From: Candidatus Woesearchaeota archaeon
GTDB taxonomy: Archaea; Nanobdellota; Nanobdellia; Woesearchaeales; UBA12501
NCBI GenBank assembly: GCA_026394915.1
Contig: JAPLZS010000025.1
Span: 1 to 11,090 of the forward strand
DNA length: 11,090 nt
Reading direction: 5' to 3'
The position numbers were made by a program, and so were the translations under genes. Shown here in pieces: positions 2,726 to 11,090 of the stretch. The notes beneath the pieces were generated by a model. It saw only the letters and a list, made by a program, of their open reading frames with translations. It was not told where the DNA came from and made no database searches. Position 1 is the first letter of the stretch. Every line of letters begins with the position of its first letter.

Positions 2726-4114
2726 ATGTCTGTATTCAAAAACATCTTACTGAATCTTCCTGAAGTGGAGTCTCCGACGCAAAGGAAACTTTCATTCAAG
2801 GAAAAGCTGAAGTGGACATTGATAGTCCTTACCGCATTCTTCATTCTTGGATTGATACCGCTGTTCGGCCTCGGCCAGAACTCATTGCAGCAGTTCGAGT
2901 TCCTTTCTGTGATACTTGGCGCTGAATTCGGATCATTGATATCCCTTGGAATAGGCCCATTGGTCACAGCATCCATTGTCCTGCAGCTGCTGAATGGGTC
3001 AAGCATAATCAAGTTTGACCTTAAGACAGATGATGGAAAGAAGACTTTCCAGGGAACGCAGAAACTTCTTTCGTTATTTTTTATACTGTTTGAATCAGGG
3101 ATTTATGTATTCATGGGAGGGCTCTCTCCTGATCCTGCGCTTAAGGGGACTTCAATGTATCTTACAATGCAGCTGATCATAATATTCCAGATGTTCCTTG
3201 GAGGGATTGCCATACTCCTCATGGATGAGATTGTCTCAAAATGGGGATTTGGCTCTGGAATAAGTTTGTTCATTGCAGCAGGAGTGTCAAAGACTCTTTT
3301 CATAAGGACCTTCAGCCCATTGCCTTCTCCTACAAATCCTGAACTGGCAACAGGAGCTATTCCTGTGTTATTTCAGAGTTTATCCTCTGGAGGATCCCCT
3401 CAGACAACGCTCTTGATGCTTGCTGCGATTGCAGCGACTGTACTGATATTCATATTTGCAGTGTATTGCCAGGCAATGAAAGTGGAGATACCATTGTCTT
3501 TCGGCAGGATAAGGGGCCACGGAATAAGATGGCCATTGGCATTCATCTACACATCTAACATACCAGTCATACTTGTCTCTGCTTTACTGGCCAATATACA
3601 ATTATGGGCAAGGCTCATGGGAAACTGGCTTGGATGGAGTGCGCAGTCAGTTGTTGACTGGGTAAGCGTTCCAGGAGGCAGTGAGGGAATACTCGGCCTG
3701 ATAATCAAGCAAGGATCTATCTTTGTCGGAATAATGCCTTATCTGCATGCATTGACTTACATGCTCATCATGGTTGCAGGAGCTGTTGTCTTCAGCTGGT
3801 TCTGGGTCCAGACAGCCGGCATGGATGCAAGGAGCCAGGCAAAGAATATAATGGCTTCTGGATTGCAGATACCTGGATTCAGGAAAGATGAAAGGGTGAT
3901 GGAGAGGATACTTGACAGATATATAGGTCCTCTGACAATAATGGGTGCAATAACAATAGGGGTACTTGCTGCGCTTGCTGATCTTTCTGGATGCCTTGTG
4001 CACGGAACAAGCCTGTTGCTCACTGTGATGATTGTGTATAGATTGTATGAGGACATTGCAAAGCAGCACATGTATGACATGCATCCTATGATGAGAAAGT
4101 TCATGGAGATCTAA
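2726..4114 (+). CDS. secY: Preprotein translocase subunit SecY
   Basis: This is the channel-forming subunit of the archaeal Sec translocase, which moves unfolded proteins across, or inserts them into, the cytoplasmic membrane with SecE and SecG/Sec61beta. The 462 residues and roughly ten hydrophobic helices fit the family. The first helix follows an amphipathic N-terminus near residues 28-48. The plug/TM2 segment contains ISLGIGPLVTASIVLQLLNG. The cytosolic TM6-TM7 loop near residues 257-285 reads SFGRIRGHGIRWPLAFIYTS NIPVILVSALL, and the TM8-TM9 loop contains QTAGMDARSQAKNIMASGLQ IPGFRKDERV; both loops are ribosome-docking regions in the family. The C-terminus YRLYEDIAKQH is typical. An AGGAG 6 nt before the ATG supports the start. 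Its stop abuts the next ATG exactly. Confidence 0.97.
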   Translation: MSVFKNILLNLPEVESPTQRKLSFKEKLKWTLIVLTAFFILGLIPLFGLGQNSLQQFEFLSVILGAEFGSLISLGIGPLVTASIVLQLLNGSSIIKFDLKTDDGKKTFQGTQKLLSLFFILFESGIYVFMGGLSPDPALKGTSMYLTMQLIIIFQMFLGGIAILLMDEIVSKWGFGSGISLFIAAGVSKTLFIRTFSPLPSPTNPELATGAIPVLFQSLSSGGSPQTTLLMLAAIAATVLIFIFAVYCQAMKVEIPLSFGRIRGHGIRWPLAFIYTSNIPVILVSALLANIQLWARLMGNWLGWSAQSVVDWVSVPGGSEGILGLIIKQGSIFVGIMPYLHALTYMLIMVAGAVVFSWFWVQTAGMDARSQAKNIMASGLQIPGFRKDERVMERILDRYIGPLTIMGAITIGVLAALADLSGCLVHGTSLLLTVMIVYRLYEDIAKQHMYDMHPMMRKFMEI

Positions 4115-4963
4115 ATGGCTTTTTACGAGATGTTTAATGCTTTTTTTGATCCTGTGCTGGGGCCATTGCTTTCTTTAGGACCGTTCCTTGCTCTGTTTTT
4201 GATGTCTTTTCTTATATCTCTTATGATTACGCTCGTGTACAAATGGGTGACTGACCAGAAGCTGATGAAGACTATAAAGGATGACCTTACCAGGATGCAG
4301 AAGGAGATAAAAGAACACAAAGATAATCCTAAACGCATGATGGAGCTCCAGAAAGAGATGATGGACAAGAATTTCAAGTACATGTCGCACTCAATGAAGC
4401 CTACGCTGTTCACTTTCATCCCTTTGATAATCATTTTCGGCTGGCTGAGCGCAAACCTTGCTTATGCGCCAATAATGCCTGACACAAAGGTTGATGTCTA
4501 TGCTTTCTTTTATGACAATAATGCGACATCACAGGCTTCTTTGGTTGCTCCTTCTGGAGTGATTTTGCTTTCTGACAATACTTCTAATGTGAGTGTGATC
4601 TATGCAGGAGATAAATTGCTTTTCAATAATCCGAACCTGGCCAATGCGCGGTATGGAGGATTCCTTGATCTGAAGAAGGATATCTATTATGCTGGCTGGA
4701 AGATAAAAGCAACATCTGGAACGCACAATCTTGAGATAGATGTGAATGGGAAGCCATACTTCAAGGATATCCTTGTGGCAGACAACAAGTATGTCAATCC
4801 TCTTGAGAAAGTGGATGATGGGACTGTGCTGGGCCTTGCAGTCGACCAGAAAGGCCAGACAGTGATTGACTTTGCAGGCGTGAAGATAGGCTGGTTCTGG
4901 TCATACGTGATATTCTCGATACTGTTCAGCATGATACTGAGGAAAGTGCTGAAGGTTTACTGA
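4115..4963 (+). CDS. DUF106 / EMC3-TMCO1-type membrane insertase (YidC-like) with external domain
   Basis: This is an archaeal DUF106 family protein, related to EMC3/TMCO1 and YidC/Oxa1, thought to help insert membrane proteins. Helix 1 is at ~22-43. A charged coiled coil at ~46-90 (LTRMQKEIKEHKDNPKRMME) is the cytosolic hairpin of the family. Helix 2 is at ~97-117 (LFTFIPLIIIFGWLSANLAY) and helix 3 at ~258-278. This topology puts residues ~120-255 outside the cell. That segment is polar, beta-rich in appearance and contains several N-x-S/T sites (NNATS, NTSNVS), which is far longer than the short helix 2-3 link of simple homologues. Being fused to the end of the ribosomal-secY operon fits a co-translational membrane role. 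The family call rests on the N-terminal half and helix 3; the outer domain is not recognised. Confidence 0.87.
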   Translation: MAFYEMFNAFFDPVLGPLLSLGPFLALFLMSFLISLMITLVYKWVTDQKLMKTIKDDLTRMQKEIKEHKDNPKRMMELQKEMMDKNFKYMSHSMKPTLFTFIPLIIIFGWLSANLAYAPIMPDTKVDVYAFFYDNNATSQASLVAPSGVILLSDNTSNVSVIYAGDKLLFNNPNLANARYGGFLDLKKDIYYAGWKIKATSGTHNLEIDVNGKPYFKDILVADNKYVNPLEKVDDGTVLGLAVDQKGQTVIDFAGVKIGWFWSYVIFSILFSMILRKVLKVY

Positions 4964-5038: not shown

Positions 5039-6970
5039 TTATTTCCTTATCTTCACCGTTATCATGAACATAAGCATTGCGAATGCAAGTATCCATGAGA
5101 CAACTCCGATTGCCTTGAATATGTCTCCGCTGCCCTGATTAGCGACAGCATTGCCTGTTATCGGCGATACTGCTGCACCTGTGATTCCATTAGCGCCTGT
5201 TGGTGCATTTCCTTCTGTTTCTGCAGGCGTTCCTGCTGCTGGAGGTGTTGATTCTACCAGATGAGTTACTGGTACGACTGTCTGAGGTGCGGTTGAAGGT
5301 GCATACACAGCTCCACCACCGCCTCCGCCTCTATGACCTATTGGAGTGTCATCGTTTACTACTACTGGCGCTGGAGCCGCATAATCCTCATCAGTGCTTC
5401 CGTCGCAGTCATTGTCTATGCCGTCATTTGTATTGTCTGCTGCAGCTGGATTTATTGCTGTATCATTGTCATTGCAGTCTGAGTTTAATATGGAAAATCC
5501 TGCCGGAGCGCTTGCATAACAGGAGGATATTTCGCTTGAAGCATTGTCTATACCATATCCGTCTGAATCTGAATCAGTATAATGAGTATACATTGTCAGG
5601 CCGTTGTCTATGATTCCGTTACAATCGTTATCCAATCCATCACATAATTCGGTACTAGGAGTTCCTGCTGAACATGAATCAACCTCTGCACCAGCAACAC
5701 ATGTCTTTTGCCCTATTGCTGCGCATGCTCCAACCCCGCAGGTTGTAGATGTTGTAACATAACCATCATCTGGGATTCCATTGCAATCATTATCTTTTCC
5801 ATCACAATTAGCATCAGATGCCCCGGGATTTATGCTGTCACAAGCATCTCCCACTCCATTAGCATTACAATCTGCCTGGTCTGGATTCGCATGATCCTTG
5901 CAATTATCAATGCAGTCTGCAACACCATCTTGATCTGTATCAGTTGCGACAGGCATTACAGCCTGGCATATGCCATTGCAATCAGTCAATCCTGCATCAG
6001 TATCACCGCATGAATTAGCATCAGAAGTGCATATCTGATTCCAAGCCGGTCTTTCTGACGGAGTTAAAGCATTGCATTCTGTGCCCAATCCGTCTTGTGA
6101 ACATACATAATTTCCTGTGTTGGAATCTCCGCAAGTGTTAGAATCGCTTTGACAAGAATCCCCTATATTGAATCCTTCATCAACTGCGCCGTCGCAATTG
6201 TCATCTAAAGCGTCACAAATTTCAGATACGCCTGGATTTACTGAAATATGGCCATCATCACAATCAGTATTATCTGTTACATAACCCAAAGGAGCTGAAC
6301 ATCCTGATTGGGTTACTAAATTATTTCCATAACCATCACCATCTGAATCTTGATAATAAGTTGTTAAAACCCCTTCGTCAGTTTGTCCATTACAATTATC
6401 ATCTAAATCATTTGCACATACTTCGGCTACACTTGGATTTATTGCCGCATCATTGTCATTGCAATCGTCTCCGCCAAACATTTTTTCTGTATATCCATCT
6501 GAATCCTTATCAACATTCGTTGTTGGATCTGCTTCTGCAGTATTAATTGATAAAATACCGGAGTTTATATTGAAACTGCATGTTCCAGAGACATACTCAC
6601 TTTCATCTAAATAAACTATTGTTTTACTATTAATCAGATCAGAAGGATTTTGTATTTCAGTCATATTATATACAGTACAGACTTTAGTATTGTCTGTATA
6701 ATTAATGTTCATGGTGATGTTGGATTCTGGAGATTTAACTTTCCAAAAAAGGAATGTTCCGTCACTTTCTGGACTATAATGATTCAAAATTCCGAAATAA
6801 TCTCCAGTGTAAACATCTCCGACATATGCATAACCATTGAATGTGGCGTTCATTACATTATTTCCATCAATAAAGATCTCCATCTCTTTGTTTATTGATT
6901 GCGTAGATGCAGCCATAACCATTGGTAAAGCCATTAATAATATCAGCATGAATTTTATTATTTTCATCAT
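5039..6970 (-). CDS. Secreted/membrane-anchored MopE-like and TSP3-like repeat surface protein
   Basis: This predicted 643-residue exported protein begins with a signal peptide (MMKIIKFMLILLMALPMVMA then ASTQ). An unrecognised N-terminal domain (~20-150) precedes a cysteine/aspartate-rich repeat region (~150-530). That region contains at least five MopE-type modules of the form C-D-x-D-N-D-C-N-G-x-x-D (for example CDGLDNDCNGIIDNG) alternating with DSDGDGYG-type acidic loops and NP-x-x-x-E-x-C. A thrombospondin type 3-like calcium loop block lies at ~342-385 (DTDQDGVADCIDNC). A glycine-rich run near 546-551 and a Pro/Thr/Ala-rich linker follow. The C-terminus has TG-containing motifs (ITGAAVSPITGNAV), one hydrophobic helix (~617-640) and a short basic tail. 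The protein is probably held on the cell surface, with calcium-stabilised repeats. The name MopE describes the repeats only; copper binding should not be assumed. The start was chosen by the AGGAGG site. Confidence 0.85.
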   Translation of the reverse strand: MMKIIKFMLILLMALPMVMAASTQSINKEMEIFIDGNNVMNATFNGYAYVGDVYTGDYFGILNHYSPESDGTFLFWKVKSPESNITMNINYTDNTKVCTVYNMTEIQNPSDLINSKTIVYLDESEYVSGTCSFNINSGILSINTAEADPTTNVDKDSDGYTEKMFGGDDCNDNDAAINPSVAEVCANDLDDNCNGQTDEGVLTTYYQDSDGDGYGNNLVTQSGCSAPLGYVTDNTDCDDGHISVNPGVSEICDALDDNCDGAVDEGFNIGDSCQSDSNTCGDSNTGNYVCSQDGLGTECNALTPSERPAWNQICTSDANSCGDTDAGLTDCNGICQAVMPVATDTDQDGVADCIDNCKDHANPDQADCNANGVGDACDSINPGASDANCDGKDNDCNGIPDDGYVTTSTTCGVGACAAIGQKTCVAGAEVDSCSAGTPSTELCDGLDNDCNGIIDNGLTMYTHYTDSDSDGYGIDNASSEISSCYASAPAGFSILNSDCNDNDTAINPAAADNTNDGIDNDCDGSTDEDYAAPAPVVVNDDTPIGHRGGGGGGAVYAPSTAPQTVVPVTHLVESTPPAAGTPAETEGNAPTGANGITGAAVSPITGNAVANQGSGDIFKAIGVVSWILAFAMLMFMITVKIRK

Positions 6971-6974
6971 AGTT

Positions 6975-6980
6975 CCTCCT
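6975..6980 (-). promoter_or_regulatory. Strong ribosome binding site deciding the surface-protein start
   Basis: A perfect AGGAGG lies 4 nt before the ATG at 6970 and 7 nt before the adjacent ATG at 6967. It excludes the longer start at 6997, which would put nine polar residues ahead of the signal peptide. Spacing slightly favours the second ATG; the two options differ by one Met. Confidence 0.85.
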
Positions 6981-7027
6981 GTATCCGACTGCCCCAAATC
7001 GTATTTTTTAAGTGGTGATGCTGCAGG

Positions 7028-7074: not shown

Positions 7075-7638
7075 TTAACTGTTCAACTTTATTGAATGAT
7101 TCAGTTTGCATAAATCTGATCTGCATGATCTTCTTAGGTGCTCCTTTATGTATGCTGTATAATCATCCTTGATTATGCTCTTTTCTGAGAACTGGAAAAG
7201 ATCCACAACCTCAAATGAGCCGTCCTGCTGCATCTCATGAAAATAATCCTCAAGCTCTGAATTGTTCTTGAACACGAACATGCCTACTGCACAGACATCG
7301 CTCCTCGATATCCTGCATAGGCATGTCAGGTTTGACATCTCATCTATCTTCTTCTTGACTGACTCTGATCCTTTCTGCCAGAGCTCTGGCTTGACTTTGA
7401 TCAATGCTATTGCGTGTGAGGATATTCCCACTCTGTCTAAGTCTATGCTGGCAGAATATCCCTTGATTATCTTGTCATCCTCAAGCCTCTTCCTTATCTT
7501 GCCTATGGCCTGAGTGGATATCTTCAGCTTTTCGGCCATATGAAGATCAGGGATCCTTGCATTGTCAAGAAGGCAGCAAATCACTTCCCTTTCATTCTTT
7601 GTGAGTTTCCTGGCCTCTGTGTTCATTAAGTTAAACAT
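7075..7638 (-). CDS. Lrp/AsnC family transcriptional regulator
   Basis: This protein of about 187 residues has the Lrp/AsnC layout. An N-terminal winged-helix DNA-binding domain covers about the first 65 residues (LTKNEREVICCLLDN, then DLHMAEKLKISTQAIGKIRK RLEDDKIIKGYSASID, the classic recognition helix and wing). A C-terminal alpha/beta effector-type domain follows, containing IALIKVKP and CLCRISRSDVCAVGMFVFKN. Such proteins form dimers or octamers and regulate nearby or metabolic genes; no ligand can be read from the sequence. The C-terminus adds a short tail with two cysteines (RRSCRSDLC). Start choice is uncertain: ATG at 7638 (used here), GTG at 7647 or ATG at 7626 are all in frame with no clear Shine-Dalgarno, and a TATA-like box at 7653-7660 is consistent with a leaderless message. 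The gene lies 78 bp after the seven-gene operon on the same strand. Confidence 0.88.
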   Translation of the reverse strand: MFNLMNTEARKLTKNEREVICCLLDNARIPDLHMAEKLKISTQAIGKIRKRLEDDKIIKGYSASIDLDRVGISSHAIALIKVKPELWQKGSESVKKKIDEMSNLTCLCRISRSDVCAVGMFVFKNNSELEDYFHEMQQDGSFEVVDLFQFSEKSIIKDDYTAYIKEHLRRSCRSDLCKLNHSIKLNS

Positions 7639-7647
7639 TTTCGTCAC

Positions 7648-7725: not shown

Positions 7726-8109
7726 CTAATAGCCTAAAACAGCATAAAATCTTATCTTCTTTATGCTCTTCTTTATACCTGCGCCCCAGACTATATGAAC
7801 ATCATCGTTCATCTTTTCCGTGATCCTGCTGATTGCCGGAAGGAGGTCTCTCTTGAGCTCTGCATCTTTTGGGCATTCCACCCTTATGGCTGCACCATTG
7901 ATTCTTTCAGGATTCTTGATATTTGATGCAAAATCACCTTCATCTCCTGAAAAGAACTCAGTTTCCTTGGAACCGTCTATCACTGACTTGATATCTTCTA
8001 TGTCAAGGAATACTTGGCCTTCTTTTTTGATCAGTCTCTTGACTAAGGCTATGCCTTTCTTGTCCTTTATCTTTGCTTTTAGATATTCATTGATTTCTTT
8101 GGTTTTCAT
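7726..8109 (-). CDS. Free-standing FtsZ C-terminal-domain-like protein
   Basis: This 127-residue protein resembles the C-terminal (non-GTPase) domain of FtsZ. Residues 31-44 (GQVFLDIEDIKSVI) line up with the FtsZ T7-loop region (G-L-I-N-V-D-F-A-D-V-x-x-x-M) and keep both aspartates (D36, D39) while the asparagine is Phe34. Residues ~70-100 (INGAAIRVECPKDAELKRDL onward) match the strand-helix unit usually reading A-x-x-x-L-V-N-I-T-G-G followed by an E-rich helix. Residues ~103-127 (DVHIVWGAGIKKSIKKIRFY AVLGY) match the family ending A-N-I-I-W-G-A...I-R-V-T-V-I-A-T-G. The N-terminal nucleotide-binding domain with its GGGTGTG loop is absent here and not encoded next door, so it should not be a GTPase on its own. 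It is the last gene of a seven-gene operon, joined to the previous gene by an ATGA overlap with GGGATGA upstream. The fold assignment is from motif reading and not from a search; role unknown. Confidence 0.62.
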   Translation of the reverse strand: MKTKEINEYLKAKIKDKKGIALVKRLIKKEGQVFLDIEDIKSVIDGSKETEFFSGDEGDFASNIKNPERINGAAIRVECPKDAELKRDLLPAISRITEKMNDDVHIVWGAGIKKSIKKIRFYAVLGY

Positions 8110-8528
8110 TTTTTCATCCCCTCAATCCATGCTCTGACTTCTTCATCAGGCGGGTTCTTGCATATGAGGCATTGCTTGCAGATGGTTACACATGCACAGT
8201 CGCAGCTTGTACTGCCTGAATCGATAATATAGTGATAATGAGATTCTCCTTTGTTCCCTTTATCGCACTGCACCTTGCAGCTTGCATCGCAGTCTCCATT
8301 GTTGGGCAGGGCATATCTGCTCCAGGAAACAGCACCTGTTGCTGTCCTGAATCTCTCATGATAGATCACCTTTGCAAAAAGAATTGGACAGATTATAATG
8401 AATATGGCCATAACCTTATCTTTCTTGCTTAATCTTTTCCATTCCCTCCTAATGACATACAAAGGGATTAGAGTAAACGACCATAAAAACAGAAAAAACA
8501 CAGACATGCCTAATATGCTCCAGTTCAT
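8106..8528 (-). CDS. Two-helix membrane protein with external cysteine-rich tail
   Basis: I do not recognise a family for this 140-residue protein. Two hydrophobic helices lie at ~6-27 and ~38-57. The loop between them (RREWKRLSKKDK) is strongly basic, so by the positive-inside rule it is cytosolic and both ends face outward. The tail holds nine cysteines at 80, 84, 88, 109, 111, 113, 117, 120 and 123 (CDASCKVQC and CDCACVTICKQCLIC) with two histidines between them (HYHY). The spacing suggests metal or Fe-S binding, or a disulphide knot if truly external. It overlaps its neighbours on both sides as ATGA, and GGTGA lies 4 nt before its ATG. It is the only membrane protein of the operon, so it may anchor the response to the envelope. 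Confidence 0.72.
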   Translation of the reverse strand: MNWSILGMSVFFLFLWSFTLIPLYVIRREWKRLSKKDKVMAIFIIICPILFAKVIYHERFRTATGAVSWSRYALPNNGDCDASCKVQCDKGNKGESHYHYIIDSGSTSCDCACVTICKQCLICKNPPDEEVRAWIEGMKK

Positions 8529-9034
8529 TTTCTCACCTTTGATCTCTTTGGCTTTGGATTCCTTATAAGAATCAGGCCATCATCAACCTTTTTCTTGTCA
8601 AGCCATATCCCATGTGTGCCTGCGCTGTCTGTGATCTCTGCCTTGTAATGGGCCTTTCCACGCCATCTCCTTATCTCATCATAATGCACACAAGGTGTGC
8701 AGCCATATTCGAAATGCATCTTATTTTTGATTTTCTTGTGAATTGGAGATCTTACTACTTGGTACTTCACTCCAGAAAACAAAGTCAGAGCATCCATATA
8801 CTCCTGAAGGTCTTTTTCCTTCAATCTGTCTGCCTTTATAACCATCTCCCAGAAGCCATCTTCATCTTTGTACACGCTTGGAATTGCTTTCTTGTTGTCT
8901 TCTCTTGCTTCTTTCAAAGTCATTATAGTGGCTTCGCAGCCTCTCTTTGAATTGAGATCTGCCCAGGTGACAGGGTGGTCTTTCTCTGTGCCCTTGAAAT
9001 CACAATAATCCCAGACTTTGATTATCTTTTTCAT
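8525..9034 (-). CDS. Hypothetical protein with C-x2-C, basic C-terminus
   Basis: I do not recognise this 169-residue soluble protein. It has four cysteines (11, 33, 112, 115); the last pair forms GCTPCVHYDE, a possible half of a metal site, with His99, His107 and His117 nearby. The middle is charged and helical in character (ADRLKEKDLQEYMDALTLFS). The C-terminal third has HYKAEITDSAGTHGIWLDKK, strand-like and rich in small residues, and a very basic tail (RNPKPKRSKVRK) that might touch nucleic acid or acidic lipid. The start is well supported: ATGA overlap with the preceding gene and GAGGTG 5 nt before the ATG. Confidence 0.7.
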   Translation of the reverse strand: MKKIIKVWDYCDFKGTEKDHPVTWADLNSKRGCEATIMTLKEAREDNKKAIPSVYKDEDGFWEMVIKADRLKEKDLQEYMDALTLFSGVKYQVVRSPIHKKIKNKMHFEYGCTPCVHYDEIRRWRGKAHYKAEITDSAGTHGIWLDKKKVDDGLILIRNPKPKRSKVRK

Positions 9035-9282
9035 CCATACACCTCGATTCCGACATCTTTCAGGGCCTCATTGATATTCTTGTATTCTTTATTATGCTTG
9101 AGCCAGACCTTGAAAATTAGTTTTCCCTTGTTCCAGAACATCAGGTGATGGTCAAATACTGGCTTTCCCATGAACTTTCCCCTGTCATGCACGTATTCTA
9201 TCCTGTCGCAGAATATCCTGCTCTGTTCCTCTGTATTCTTATGGCCGATGAAACCACGTTTTCTCTTGATTGTATTTTTCAT
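9031..9282 (-). CDS. Small basic hypothetical protein
   Basis: This is an unrecognised 83-residue protein. It begins with a basic patch (KNTIKRKRGFIGHK). The centre is aromatic and histidine-rich (KPVFDHHLMFWNKGKLIFKV WLKH) and looks like alternating beta strands, and the end (NINEALKDVGIEVYG) looks helical. No membrane segment or signal peptide is seen. The frame is open upstream as far as a TGA, but there is no other normal start codon, so ATG 9282 is the start. The AAGGAG at 9295-9300 is 12 nt away, which is poor spacing. A 55-bp gap to the previous gene is the widest within the operon; nothing else is visible in it. It overlaps the next gene as ATGA. Confidence 0.62.
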   Translation of the reverse strand: MKNTIKRKRGFIGHKNTEEQSRIFCDRIEYVHDRGKFMGKPVFDHHLMFWNKGKLIFKVWLKHNKEYKNINEALKDVGIEVYG

Positions 9283-9337
9283 TTTTTGAATATGCTCCTT
9301 GCGTGGCCTAATCTCTCCTTTGTTGAGATAGTATCAG

Positions 9338-9493
9338 CTAATTCCTCTCTCTGCCTTTTCCTCTTCTCTTGCTTTTTCTCTCTATATCTCTATTGAACTC
9401 CTGATCAGCTTTCCTTAATGCCTTTTCACCGAGTTTCTTCCTGCAGTGAGGGCACTTAAGGTTCTCATCAACAAAAAAGCATTTTTTCCCCAT
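9338..9493 (-). CDS. 51-residue zinc-ribbon-like small protein
   Basis: This is a very short gene supported by context. The upstream gene's TGA stop is the end of a GGTGA ribosome binding site located 5 nt before this ATG, an arrangement also seen between the two upstream genes. The protein starts GKKCFFVDENLKCPHCRKKL, giving a C-x8-C-x2-C pattern like one knuckle and a partial second knuckle of a zinc ribbon. After that it is a charged, helix-forming tail (REFN/RDIERKSKRRGKGRERN-like, overall strongly basic). It could bind RNA or DNA or act as a small partner of a neighbour. It has three cysteines and one histidine (CPHC), so a complete four-ligand zinc site is possible. No function can be assigned. 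Confidence 0.62.
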   Translation of the reverse strand: MGKKCFFVDENLKCPHCRKKLGEKALRKADQEFNRDIERKSKRRGKGRERN

Positions 9494-9498
9494 GTTTC

Positions 9499-9939
9499 TC
9501 ACCTTTTCCTCTCAATCAGCATTATGTTTATTTTCGGAAGATTAAAATTGAAGGGTCTTGTGCTTGGCGCTGAATTCCAGCATTTGGGTGCATACCATGA
9601 TGTTGCTACAAGGCCTGTTTTCTCAATTACAATATCTCCTGCCATGCTTCCTATGAGATTTAGCAGCGAGACTTCAGAGATGTGCAATCTTCCGTCATCA
9701 GGGAAGATATAAAAGCCCATGAAATCCTTATGCTCTGGATTTCTTTTCTTGATGAGCCTTGCAAGTATCCTTTCAAAATCTTTCCTTGTGCTGATAAGCG
9801 GTCTTTTCGGATTGAAACTGCATCTCTCTATTGTAAGTTTGCACCCTTTCACGCTTTTCAGGAAGCTTTTCCATTCTTTCCCATTGACAAGCCTGCTGCC
9901 TATGCCTTTCACGATAAATTCTGCATCTGGATGTACCAT
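9499..9939 (-). CDS. Hypothetical soluble protein of unknown family
   Basis: I do not recognise this protein (146 residues from the ATG at 9939). It reads as an alpha/beta protein with strands such as GCKLTIERCSF, DFMGFYIFPDDGRLHISEVS and INIMLIERKR, and a basic helix (RKDFERILARLIKKR). Two longer in-frame starts exist (9987 and 9975), but they lie inside the upstream 54-codon gene and lack a ribosome binding site. The 9939 ATG follows GGTGA by 4 nt, and the TGA stop of the upstream gene is embedded in that site. There is no signal peptide or membrane helix. Function is unknown; being second in the operon it is a likely core component. Confidence 0.7.
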   Translation of the reverse strand: MVHPDAEFIVKGIGSRLVNGKEWKSFLKSVKGCKLTIERCSFNPKRPLISTRKDFERILARLIKKRNPEHKDFMGFYIFPDDGRLHISEVSLLNLIGSMAGDIVIEKTGLVATSWYAPKCWNSAPSTRPFNFNLPKINIMLIERKR

Positions 9940-9943
9940 TGTT

Positions 9944-10108
9944 TCACCCGATGTAATCTGCTGAAAGTGTTTCATTGTCTTCAACATAATCAGCAGCCCT
10001 CACAGAAATTATGTCGACTTTGCCTTCTTTTCTCATGCCTATTGTGAAGATCACTTCCTTTCCTATGCTCTGCCTTATCTTTTCCAGCCTTTTCCCGAAG
10101 TTTTTCAT
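9944..10108 (-). CDS. 54-residue leader protein of the seven-gene operon
   Basis: This short first gene of the minus-strand operon starts with MKNFGKRLEKIRQSIGKEVI and continues FTIGMRKEGKVDIISVRAAD before an acidic end. The ATG is preceded by GGGTGA with 5 nt spacing, and a TATA-like TTAAATAA lies about 55 bp upstream. The protein looks like one amphipathic helix followed by two short strands; no family is recognised. Its stop is 4 nt from the next start. Support comes from the ribosome binding sites at both ends and the promoter position; a real but tiny protein is more likely than chance. Confidence 0.6.
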   Translation of the reverse strand: MKNFGKRLEKIRQSIGKEVIFTIGMRKEGKVDIISVRAADYVEDNETLSADYIG

Positions 10109-10140
10109 TTATTTCACCCTTCCTATCTTTATTGTCTATT

Positions 10141-10159
10141 TTCTACTTGTAAAGTAGAA
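10141..10159. promoter_or_regulatory. Operator-like palindrome, proximal copy
   Basis: TTCTACTTGTAAAGTAGAA is a perfect inverted repeat with 8-bp arms and a 3-bp centre. Its minus-strand position, between the TATA-like box (10163-10170) and the start codon at 10108, covers the predicted transcription start (~10141) of the seven-gene operon, a place where a bound protein would repress. A matching copy lies 34 bp away. The best candidate binder is the winged-helix regulator encoded at 10267. An RNA hairpin is possible but less likely, since the site would sit at or before the transcript's 5' end. Confidence 0.7.
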
Positions 10160-10162
10160 CTA

Positions 10163-10170
10163 TTATTTAA
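10163..10170 (-). promoter_or_regulatory. Candidate TATA box of the seven-gene operon
   Basis: The minus strand reads CTTAAATAAT here. Its centre is about 58 bp from the first ATG, predicting a leader of about 30 nt that includes the GGGTGA ribosome binding site. It sits precisely in the 15-bp interval between the two palindromes, so proteins bound at both would flank or exclude TBP/TFB. Confidence 0.55.
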
Positions 10171-10174
10171 GTCT

Positions 10175-10193
10175 TTCTATTTAATAAGTAGAA
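10175..10193. promoter_or_regulatory. Operator-like palindrome, distal copy
   Basis: TTCTATTTAATAAGTAGAA repeats the layout of the other copy: 8-bp arms, 3-bp centre, with a single C-to-T change in the left arm producing one mismatched pair. The right arm AAGTAGAA is identical in both. It lies just upstream of the minus-strand TATA box, in the position of the BRE/TFB contact, and about 24 bp before the plus-strand TATA box. Confidence 0.68.
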
Positions 10194-10210
10194 TTTATAG
10201 CTTTTTAACC

Positions 10211-10224
10211 GAAAGATTTATATA
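10211..10224 (+). promoter_or_regulatory. BRE/TATA promoter of the CARF-like regulator gene
   Basis: The sequence GAAAGA followed by TTTATATA is close to the archaeal BRE-TATA consensus. It predicts a start near 10246 and a short leader of about 20 nt containing the purine run GAGGGGG (10253-10259), 7 nt before the ATG at 10267. It is the best-looking promoter in the window. Confidence 0.7.
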
Positions 10225-10266
10225 TCAATCTTATTTTATAGGTATAACATAAGAGGGGGATATATT

Positions 10267-10857
10267 ATGAAGAAAGTGATGATCTCTACTATCTATGAAG
10301 GCAATGTAGTGCCGATTGCAGTCCATAAGCTTGGGCCTGACAAATTGATACTTCTTGACGCAGAAGACAGGAAAGACACAAGGGAGAGGGCTATAAATTC
10401 TTTAAAAGAGAAGTATAAGGGCATTGTTGAAGTGTCTGCTGTCAAGACTTCCTCTTATGACATTGTGAAGATAGCTTCTGATGTCGCTTCTATAATTGAT
10501 TCAGAGTCTGCAAAAGGGAACTCTGTAATGCTTCATATAACAGAATCCAGGAAGATACAGTCAATAGGCGCAATGTTCGGCGCTTATTTAAGGAAAGAGA
10601 AGGTTGACGGGATATATTATTTTATACAGGAGACAGGGGAGCCCATGAAACTGCCTGTTCTTGACCTGAAACTGAATGAGACCAAGATGAAGATGATGAA
10701 AGAGATCATGAAAGGCCAAACAAATGCAAAGGAACTGGCCTCAAAGCTGGATGTTCATCTTTCTCTTATTTATGCTAACTTTAAAGAGATGCAGAAGGAA
10801 GGCCTGCTTGACGACGACCTTAAGATAACAGAAGCAGGAAGACTGAGGATGGTATGA
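10267..10857 (+). CDS. CARF-like domain / winged-helix regulator (Csa3/HFX_2341-like)
   Basis: This is a 196-residue protein with two parts. Residues 1-130 have the Rossmann-like layout of CARF domains: a first strand and turn (VMISTIYEGNVVPIAVH), LGPDKLILLDAE, and near residues 88-106 LHITESRKIQSIGAMFGAYL. The last corresponds to the CARF ligand loop usually reading n-x-T-G-G-x-K but here has T-E-S-R-K. Residues ~135-196 form a winged helix (MKGQTNAKELASKLDVHLSL IYANFKEMQKEGLL). The family includes CRISPR-linked regulators such as Csa3 that sense cyclic oligoadenylates, and halophile HFX_2341-type proteins. No CRISPR array or cas gene is in this window, so the ligand may differ. Divergent placement next to twin palindromes makes it the probable regulator of the seven-gene operon. 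It overlaps the next gene as ATGA. The domain call is from layout and motifs only. Confidence 0.75.
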   Translation: MKKVMISTIYEGNVVPIAVHKLGPDKLILLDAEDRKDTRERAINSLKEKYKGIVEVSAVKTSSYDIVKIASDVASIIDSESAKGNSVMLHITESRKIQSIGAMFGAYLRKEKVDGIYYFIQETGEPMKLPVLDLKLNETKMKMMKEIMKGQTNAKELASKLDVHLSLIYANFKEMQKEGLLDDDLKITEAGRLRMV

Positions 10858-11090
10858 TGAAAAGAGAAATCGAAAGTAGGACAATATTGGACAAGTTTGC
10901 AAAAGATTTTGCAGATGTTGTTGAGAAGCATGCAAAGTACATCATAGTCTCCGGCTTTGTGGCCATAGCGCATGGAAGGAGCAGGGGAACAGAAGACATT
11001 GACATGATAATAGAGAGGATAAGCAAAGAAGAGTTTGTAAAGCTTCACAAAGATCTTGTAAAGAATGGGTTTGTCTGCATGCAGTCAGAT
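10854..11090 (+). CDS. Minimal nucleotidyltransferase-like protein, 3' end beyond window
   Basis: Seventy-nine codons are visible before the window ends. The start is ATG 10854 (ATGA overlap with the regulator stop) or the next ATG at 10857; GAGG lies 5 or 8 nt upstream. Residues ~30-53 read IIVSGFVAIAHGRSRGTEDI DMII, the pattern of stand-alone nucleotidyltransferase-fold proteins: a small-residue turn, a helix with A-x-x-H-G, then R-x-T-x-D-I-D with the two metal-binding aspartates (D48, D50). The usual G-G or G-S pair is S-G here. Related proteins include AbiEii/MNT-type toxins and antitoxins and DUF6036-like proteins, some of which add nucleotides to tRNA or to partner proteins. Activity cannot be judged because the third catalytic residue lies outside the window. 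Co-transcription with a CARF-like regulator suggests signalling or defence. Confidence 0.78.
   Translation, partial: MMKREIESRTILDKFAKDFADVVEKHAKYIIVSGFVAIAHGRSRGTEDIDMIIERISKEEFVKLHKDLVKNGFVCMQSD

Follow-up and report, generated by a model that had tools for sequence, protein, structure and literature searches.

Does a gene that encodes only the C-terminal half of FtsZ represent the broken end of a division gene, a domain put to another use or a modulator of the cell's own FtsZ? The question is raised by a minus-strand open reading frame (ORF), 7726..8109 (start codon ATG at 8109, stop codon at 7726), in an 11,090-nucleotide stretch of DNA, here called the window, from a Candidatus Woesearchaeota archaeon (genome G000). 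It encodes a 127-aa protein, P0001, assigned to the FtsZ C-terminal domain (FtsZ-C) by profile-profile match and predicted fold; in the same frame, the plus strand is interrupted by stops. To our knowledge, no natural FtsZ-family protein has been described that is devoid of the GTPase half yet carries the T7 aspartates, most subscription papers being outside the search.

Identity and predicted fold of P0001

Taken by itself, P0001 is weakly recognized. It scored 14.9 bits against Pfam FtsZ_C (PF12327; cut-off 27), matched positions 197-312 of 353 of the NCBIfam ftsZ model (TIGR00065) with E 5.6e-4, far below the model cut-off, and among PDB sequences retrieved M. jannaschii FtsZ with E 0.054. 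Its identity is settled by the scores of its relatives: the paralogue P0003 (27.2 bits) and the protein encoded at locus L047 (47.2 bits) are both above the FtsZ_C cut-off of 27, and a family profile of 11 rows matched FtsZ with a probability of 99.3 and E 3.9e-20, over FtsZ columns 229-348 of 435 only. The structure model (pLDDT 87) agrees with this assignment, as 50/50 PDB matches listed by Foldseek were FtsZ, with E 8.8e-8 and TMq 0.67 for 1w5a. On the basis of profiles and predicted fold, P0001 is a free-standing FtsZ C-terminal domain, as the initial annotation had proposed from motifs.

According to the structure model, from which the elements were taken (the FtsZ element names were assigned in this analysis), homology to FtsZ begins within helix 7, in its C-terminal half (residues ~17-27); an additional N-terminal helix (3-13) lies in front, and after helix 7 come H8, S7, a short H9, S8, H10, S9 and S10. 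The ORF had been read as a whole as the domain after helix 7; the C-terminal domain stands, and its start has to be moved back into helix 7, with the additional helix in front. The expectation that the operon holds no GTPase half was borne out when the window and four related contigs were scanned in six frames with the full FtsZ profile and no such half was found: the matches there covered positions 208-352 of 362 only, the remainder had E above 0.7, and profile positions 1-207 had no match in the window. With the GTPase half missing, P0001 is expected to be incapable of GTP-dependent polymerization. Although its domain places it in the FtsZ superfamily, it is not called an FtsZ because it lacks the GTPase half that defines one. 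P0001 and FtsZ have in common the C-terminal half of H7, the T7 aspartates, H8, S7-S10 and H10; P0001 is unlike FtsZ in that it is free-standing, has no GTPase domain, is missing the H9 region and has the T7 Asn replaced.

An intact gene and its relatives

Short FtsZ_C matches may be fragments, and some of those found in the survey were indeed contig-edge pieces: G043:C13 (locus L024), and G036:C25 and G037:C53, with starts at contig bases 74 and 84, were rejected as free-standing copies. For P0001, an origin as the truncated end of a complete ftsZ gene, or by misassembly of one, is contradicted by several observations and was rejected, its probability being negligible. The gene has its own start, with an ATGA overlap, the contig continues on both sides of it, and no GTPase remnant is present. 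A full ftsZ1 and a full ftsZ2 lie on other contigs of the same genome (76% complete, 225 contigs), which also contains a second family copy 52% identical to P0001. Finally, 11 relatives form one group with 100/100 support outside FtsZ1/FtsZ2 in a tree with 40 FtsZ1, 20 FtsZ2 and 12 bacterial domains (139 columns; bootstrap not fully settled). The family sits on a very long branch from FtsZ, and owing to the long branches and the 139 columns, the trees did not separate FtsZ1 from FtsZ2 as its direct parent.

The relatives retrieved by protein searches have 100-194 aa, some of them on short contigs and possibly cut, and genome G231 encodes a 290-aa version in which the domain corresponds to the first ~140 aa. 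The family is patchy: in the order, only 2/352 genomes reached E<=1e-20, with two copies each. FtsZ matches were present in 60/60 genomes (59 relatives and G000) of another search. In these 60 genomes there was no further clear free-standing copy, in a search that overlooked a distant ORF of G001. A full-length FtsZ frame was found in 6/6 genomes harbouring either the domain or a candidate, G164 having one such frame and one contig-edge piece. Among other candidates, P0017 turned out to be a plain FtsZ piece, and G015:C1 was rejected as an unrelated ORF, pilin-like by eye, with a marginal E of 0.0099.

A first profile scan of genome contigs gave no relatives; a second one gave at least 13 matches, of which, among those listed, one (L047) belongs to the family. 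The remaining 12 listed have bacterial, mostly clostridial, titles and were set aside, 11 with FtsZ ORFs of 372-406 aa and one (L058) with a 267-aa frame. A viral origin was rejected, since no relatives appeared in the viral contigs scanned with the FtsZ-C profiles and with the 169-aa and 162-aa ORFs of the window; PHROGs gave no convincing match (best E 0.023).

The operon and its surroundings

P0001 is the last gene of an operon on the minus strand in which 4-base ATGA overlaps join genes of 83 aa (9031..9282), 169 aa (8525..9034), 140 aa (8106..8528) and 127 aa. The 83-aa and 169-aa ORFs have no family assigned, and the 140-aa ORF has an N-terminal hydrophobic stretch and a Cys-rich part (by eye). 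Further upstream on the same strand are a 51-aa ORF with a Cys motif (C..CPHC; 9338..9493) and a 162-aa ORF (9499..9987), the first gene on this divergent side, which was found in 2/352 genomes of the order at E<=1e-4. Five of the operon proteins of the window, the 51-aa ORF being left out, had no PADLOC match at E<=0.01. A contig of genome G008 (G008:C35, locus L045) carries homologues of the 162-aa (3770-4270), 83-aa, 169-aa and 140-aa (6525-6962) genes together with a CARF gene, and no FtsZ-C gene was found on it.

The 51-aa ORF has a match directly after the paralogous FtsZ-C gene in locus L026 (88% over 41 aa), and in P0007, from a 680-bp contig, a similar stretch is fused in front of the FtsZ-C domain (76% over 49 aa). 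Together these give a fusion link between the small Cys-motif protein and the domain.

Elsewhere in the window, an Lrp/AsnC-like regulator (7075-7647, minus) lies between the FtsZ-C operon and a gene (5039-6997, minus) whose 652-aa product contains five stretches of the MopE metal-binding type (Pfam PF11617), has a hydrophobic C-terminal end (by eye) and is likely a surface protein. An ORF at 10854-11090 (plus) overlaps the end of the CARF gene described below and is cut by the window end; its GTEDIDMII motif recalls nucleotidyltransferases (by eye), and no convincing Pfam family match was obtained. The other end of the window is a ribosomal protein/SecY region, judged by eye from the ORFs.

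Linkage to CARF regulator genes

CARF signalling is known mainly from nucleases and CRISPR regulation. Across a divergent intergenic region of 279 bp (9988..10266), the operon faces a CARF regulator gene (10267..10857, plus strand, 196 aa), putatively of the CARF-HTH (Csa3/HFX_2341-like) kind, which matched PADLOC PDLC01849 with E 3.4e-57 and HFX_2341_N with 34.8 bits (cut-off 30); the HTH matches of its product are below cut-off (TIGR01884, 57.7 bits vs 60.2). This gene resembles those of Csa3-type CARF-wHTH regulators in the CARF profiles it matches, and is unlike them in that it faces an operon of uncharacterized genes with an FtsZ domain and that Cas10 was absent in 4/4 genomes tested, the source genome being only 76% complete. 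Csa3 factors recognize cyclic oligoadenylate, according to excerpts of two reports (PMC8844856, PMC8699464).

A CARF gene occurs on the divergent side of FtsZ-C in three of the four readable contigs of the core family (window, L047 and L090), at 105 to 2158 bp from the domain gene, the L047 CARF gene running off the contig end. On the fourth contig, L026 (4545 bp), which holds the second family copy of the genome, no CARF gene is seen; this contig begins 123 bp before the first gene of the operon. In G000 (1/1) and G231 (2/2), every CARF match of this kind falls at these divergent-side FtsZ-C loci. A check had been proposed on whether the homologues are always GTPase-free and in the same operon: the former was found in the window and the four related contigs, and the latter does not hold, as neighbours vary and it is the CARF gene that recurs.

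Seen from the CARF side, genes of this kind are present in 52/336 genomes of the order (64 matches at E<=1e-9). Sixty-three of these were examined, leaving out the one in G063, which starts where its contig does; in a separate scan 48 of the 63 had E<1e-25, and several are cut by contig ends. FtsZ-C-like ORFs were found at 7/63 loci: the window, L047 and L090, which match by construction because the profile contains them, and four weaker ones, L181, L186, L194 and L188 (best HMM E 1.1e-6 to 2.8e-5). In a search of 1967 ORFs drawn from 65 loci, among which one is no CARF locus and another, L026, shows no CARF gene, the distant ORFs, two in L181 and one each in L186, L188 and L194, had HMM E of 1.1e-6 to 1.3e-4, and a degenerate second copy in L090 had 6.9e-10; the high scores of the distant ORFs with a second-round profile arise by construction. 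Eight of nine copies lie on the divergent side of the CARF gene within 2.5 kb, and one runs in the same direction, overlapping the CARF gene end. Distant copies were sought around CARF genes and control loci only; as a control, 100 other loci with 1762 ORFs (423 kb vs 573 kb in 60 stretches, mostly around CARF genes) gave no such match except FtsZ itself, including one contig-edge piece, the best other E being 0.36. When the 1967 ORFs were shuffled five times, no E was better than 0.012. The distant ORF of G001 (L194) aligned with hhalign at a probability of 35 and E 4e-4, had no FtsZ_C match by Pfam and gave a model (pLDDT 47, pTM 0.36) that lends no fold support. The four weak loci are leads to candidate members of the FtsZ-C family.

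Two of these loci show further arrangements. L181 contains a 375-aa CARF ORF (1364-2491) with a long N-terminal extension and an FtsZ-C-like ORF on each flank. In L090, a region weakly similar to TYW3 (18.7 bits, cut-off 27) is fused to FtsZ-C (8832-9704), and the degenerate 107-aa copy (10835-11158) belongs to the same operon as this fusion.

Conservation of the T7 loop

The T7 loop of FtsZ, which inserts into the GTP pocket of the neighbouring subunit (PMC8456036, in excerpt), follows the pattern GXXNXD plus a second Asp. Its counterpart in P0001 is the segment G-Q-V-F-L-D36-I-E-D39-I-K41 (residues 31-41; 7987..8019, minus), with the codons of D36 and D39 at 8002-8004 and 7993-7995 on the same strand and with Phe34 at the place of the T7 Asn. 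G31, D36, D39 and W108-G-A110 are present, in line with the retained aspartates and the I-V-W-G-A ending of the first description. D36 and D39 are invariant in 12/12 core relatives and Lys41 is kept in 11/12; the Asn at position 34 is kept in six of the 12 and lost in the other six.

When 49 near-invariant columns, defined on 60 archaeal FtsZ1/FtsZ2 domains, were compared with the 11 relatives, only six (D36, D39, G55, L85, W108 and A110) were retained in all 11, D36 and D39 being the only charged residues among them. Thirty-six of the 49 columns were retained in half or fewer of the relatives, and the stretch around H9, with seven near-invariant columns, is a gap in 11/11. The T7 aspartates outlast most other conserved positions, which suggests that the T7 contact of the family is still in use.

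These comparisons also bear on another reading, in which the FtsZ-C fold has been repurposed as a scaffold or interaction module of the CARF islands with no FtsZ contact left. The loss of so many FtsZ-conserved columns and the very long branch point in this direction, as do the fusions of the domain to the weak-TYW3 part (L090) and to the Cys-motif stretch, and the erosion of T7 residues in diverged CARF-linked copies, only 1/6 of which has both aspartates (alignment, by eye). A mere scaffold, however, would have no need of the T7 aspartates, the sole charged FtsZ-invariant residues in 11/11 relatives, and repurposing of this sort appears rather unlikely.

Other partners of the CARF islands

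AAA+ genes related to that of L047 occur on the divergent side of 10/63 CARF loci, all within 850 bp, and in L047 itself the AAA+ gene (892-2340, with two AAA stretches) is directly upstream of FtsZ-C. Moreover, Pfam detects a CDC48 N-domain encoded without the ATPase in L026 (2476-3225) and L045 (7324-8007), and L158 has an ORF related to CDC48 N-domain proteins beside its CARF gene. This evidence is compatible with the domain acting as an adaptor that grips FtsZ, or tubulin-like proteins of invaders, and passes them to the Cdc48-like AAA+ unfoldase of the islands; but AAA+ proteins of this kind coincide with FtsZ-C at one locus only (L047) and none was seen in the operon of the window, and we regard an adaptor as quite unlikely.

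A charged family of ~110 aa is common to L026 (2162-2503), L045 (3397-3744), L181 (2943-3299) and L182 (8584-8904), with no match in the control ORFs; with 20 partner queries, 0/20 matched control ORFs at E<=0.001.

Proposed role and relation to known systems

We consider it plausible, if somewhat short of probable, that P0001 is a CARF-controlled modulator of FtsZ which docks through its T7 loop. The gene would be kept under selection and its product would modulate the cell's own FtsZ: activation of the adjacent CARF-HTH regulator would switch on synthesis of the domain, whose T7 loop (D36, D39) would then occupy the nucleotide face left exposed on an FtsZ subunit, a contact normally made by the T7 loop of the following subunit. 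Since the docked domain has no GTPase half, no further subunit would be accepted and filaments would be capped or shortened; the domain may also speed GTP hydrolysis, and division would pause. Capping had been put forward in the initial annotation, whose interpretation is partly supported, namely for the domain homology and fold, the operon free of a GTPase half and the retained T7 aspartates. We infer regulation by CARF, FtsZ binding, capping and division arrest within a stress or anti-virus response; the homology and predicted fold, the conservation of D36/D39, the CARF linkage and the full FtsZ of the same genomes count in favour. Counted against are the loss of the T7 Asn in half of the relatives, the missing H9 part, the diverged copies, mostly without both aspartates, the minority of CARF loci with FtsZ-C, four of the seven on weak HMM scores, the L026 copy with no CARF gene seen and the lack of Cas10 in the four genomes.

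A more specific proposal, which we hold to be somewhat improbable, is a division-arrest cassette under CARF control in which a second-messenger signal would make the FtsZ C-domain plug filaments via T7, a piece of the host cytoskeleton thus serving as an immune-type effector. Read in this way, the solo CDC48 N-domain and the AAA+ ATPases of the islands suggest a wider tactic by which host machines are competed with or redirected through domains of their own. The domain could instead be a decoy or bait, mimicking the FtsZ face bound by viral division inhibitors and soaking them up or reporting them; the CARF-island context would suit such a role, but most FtsZ surface identity is lost in the domain and we know of no viral division inhibitor for these hosts, which leaves a decoy very unlikely. 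In excerpts of one report (PMC13423816), phages target FtsZ and immunity can read FtsZ, which counts in favour of the FtsZ modulator, and phage Gp0.4 with FtsZ activates CapRel immunity, which counts in favour of a decoy.

As a modulator of FtsZ, P0001 would act like MciZ, SulA, Gp0.4 and Kil, small proteins that block FtsZ filament assembly; the SulA:FtsZ complex 1ofu is among the Foldseek matches listed for its model. It would differ from them in origin, as none of the four is described as a piece of FtsZ in the excerpts available, whereas P0001 derives from FtsZ and would exploit the T7 contact that FtsZ itself makes. No description of a free FtsZ C-domain, or of a link between CARF or cyclic oligoadenylate and FtsZ, was found by full-text searches of a literature collection that lacks most subscription papers. 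The CARF linkage of the FtsZ-C gene and the fusion with the small Cys-motif protein are new here.

In some small archaea, a separate gene encodes half of FtsZ, without the GTPase half, beside a regulator that probably senses infection, and its product may serve the cell as an inbuilt division modulator. If P0001 acts on FtsZ, it would provide a naturally evolved and genetically simple cap with which to test the T7 contact in hydrolysis and filament turnover, and would connect CARF signalling with division in archaea that are mostly known through metagenomics.
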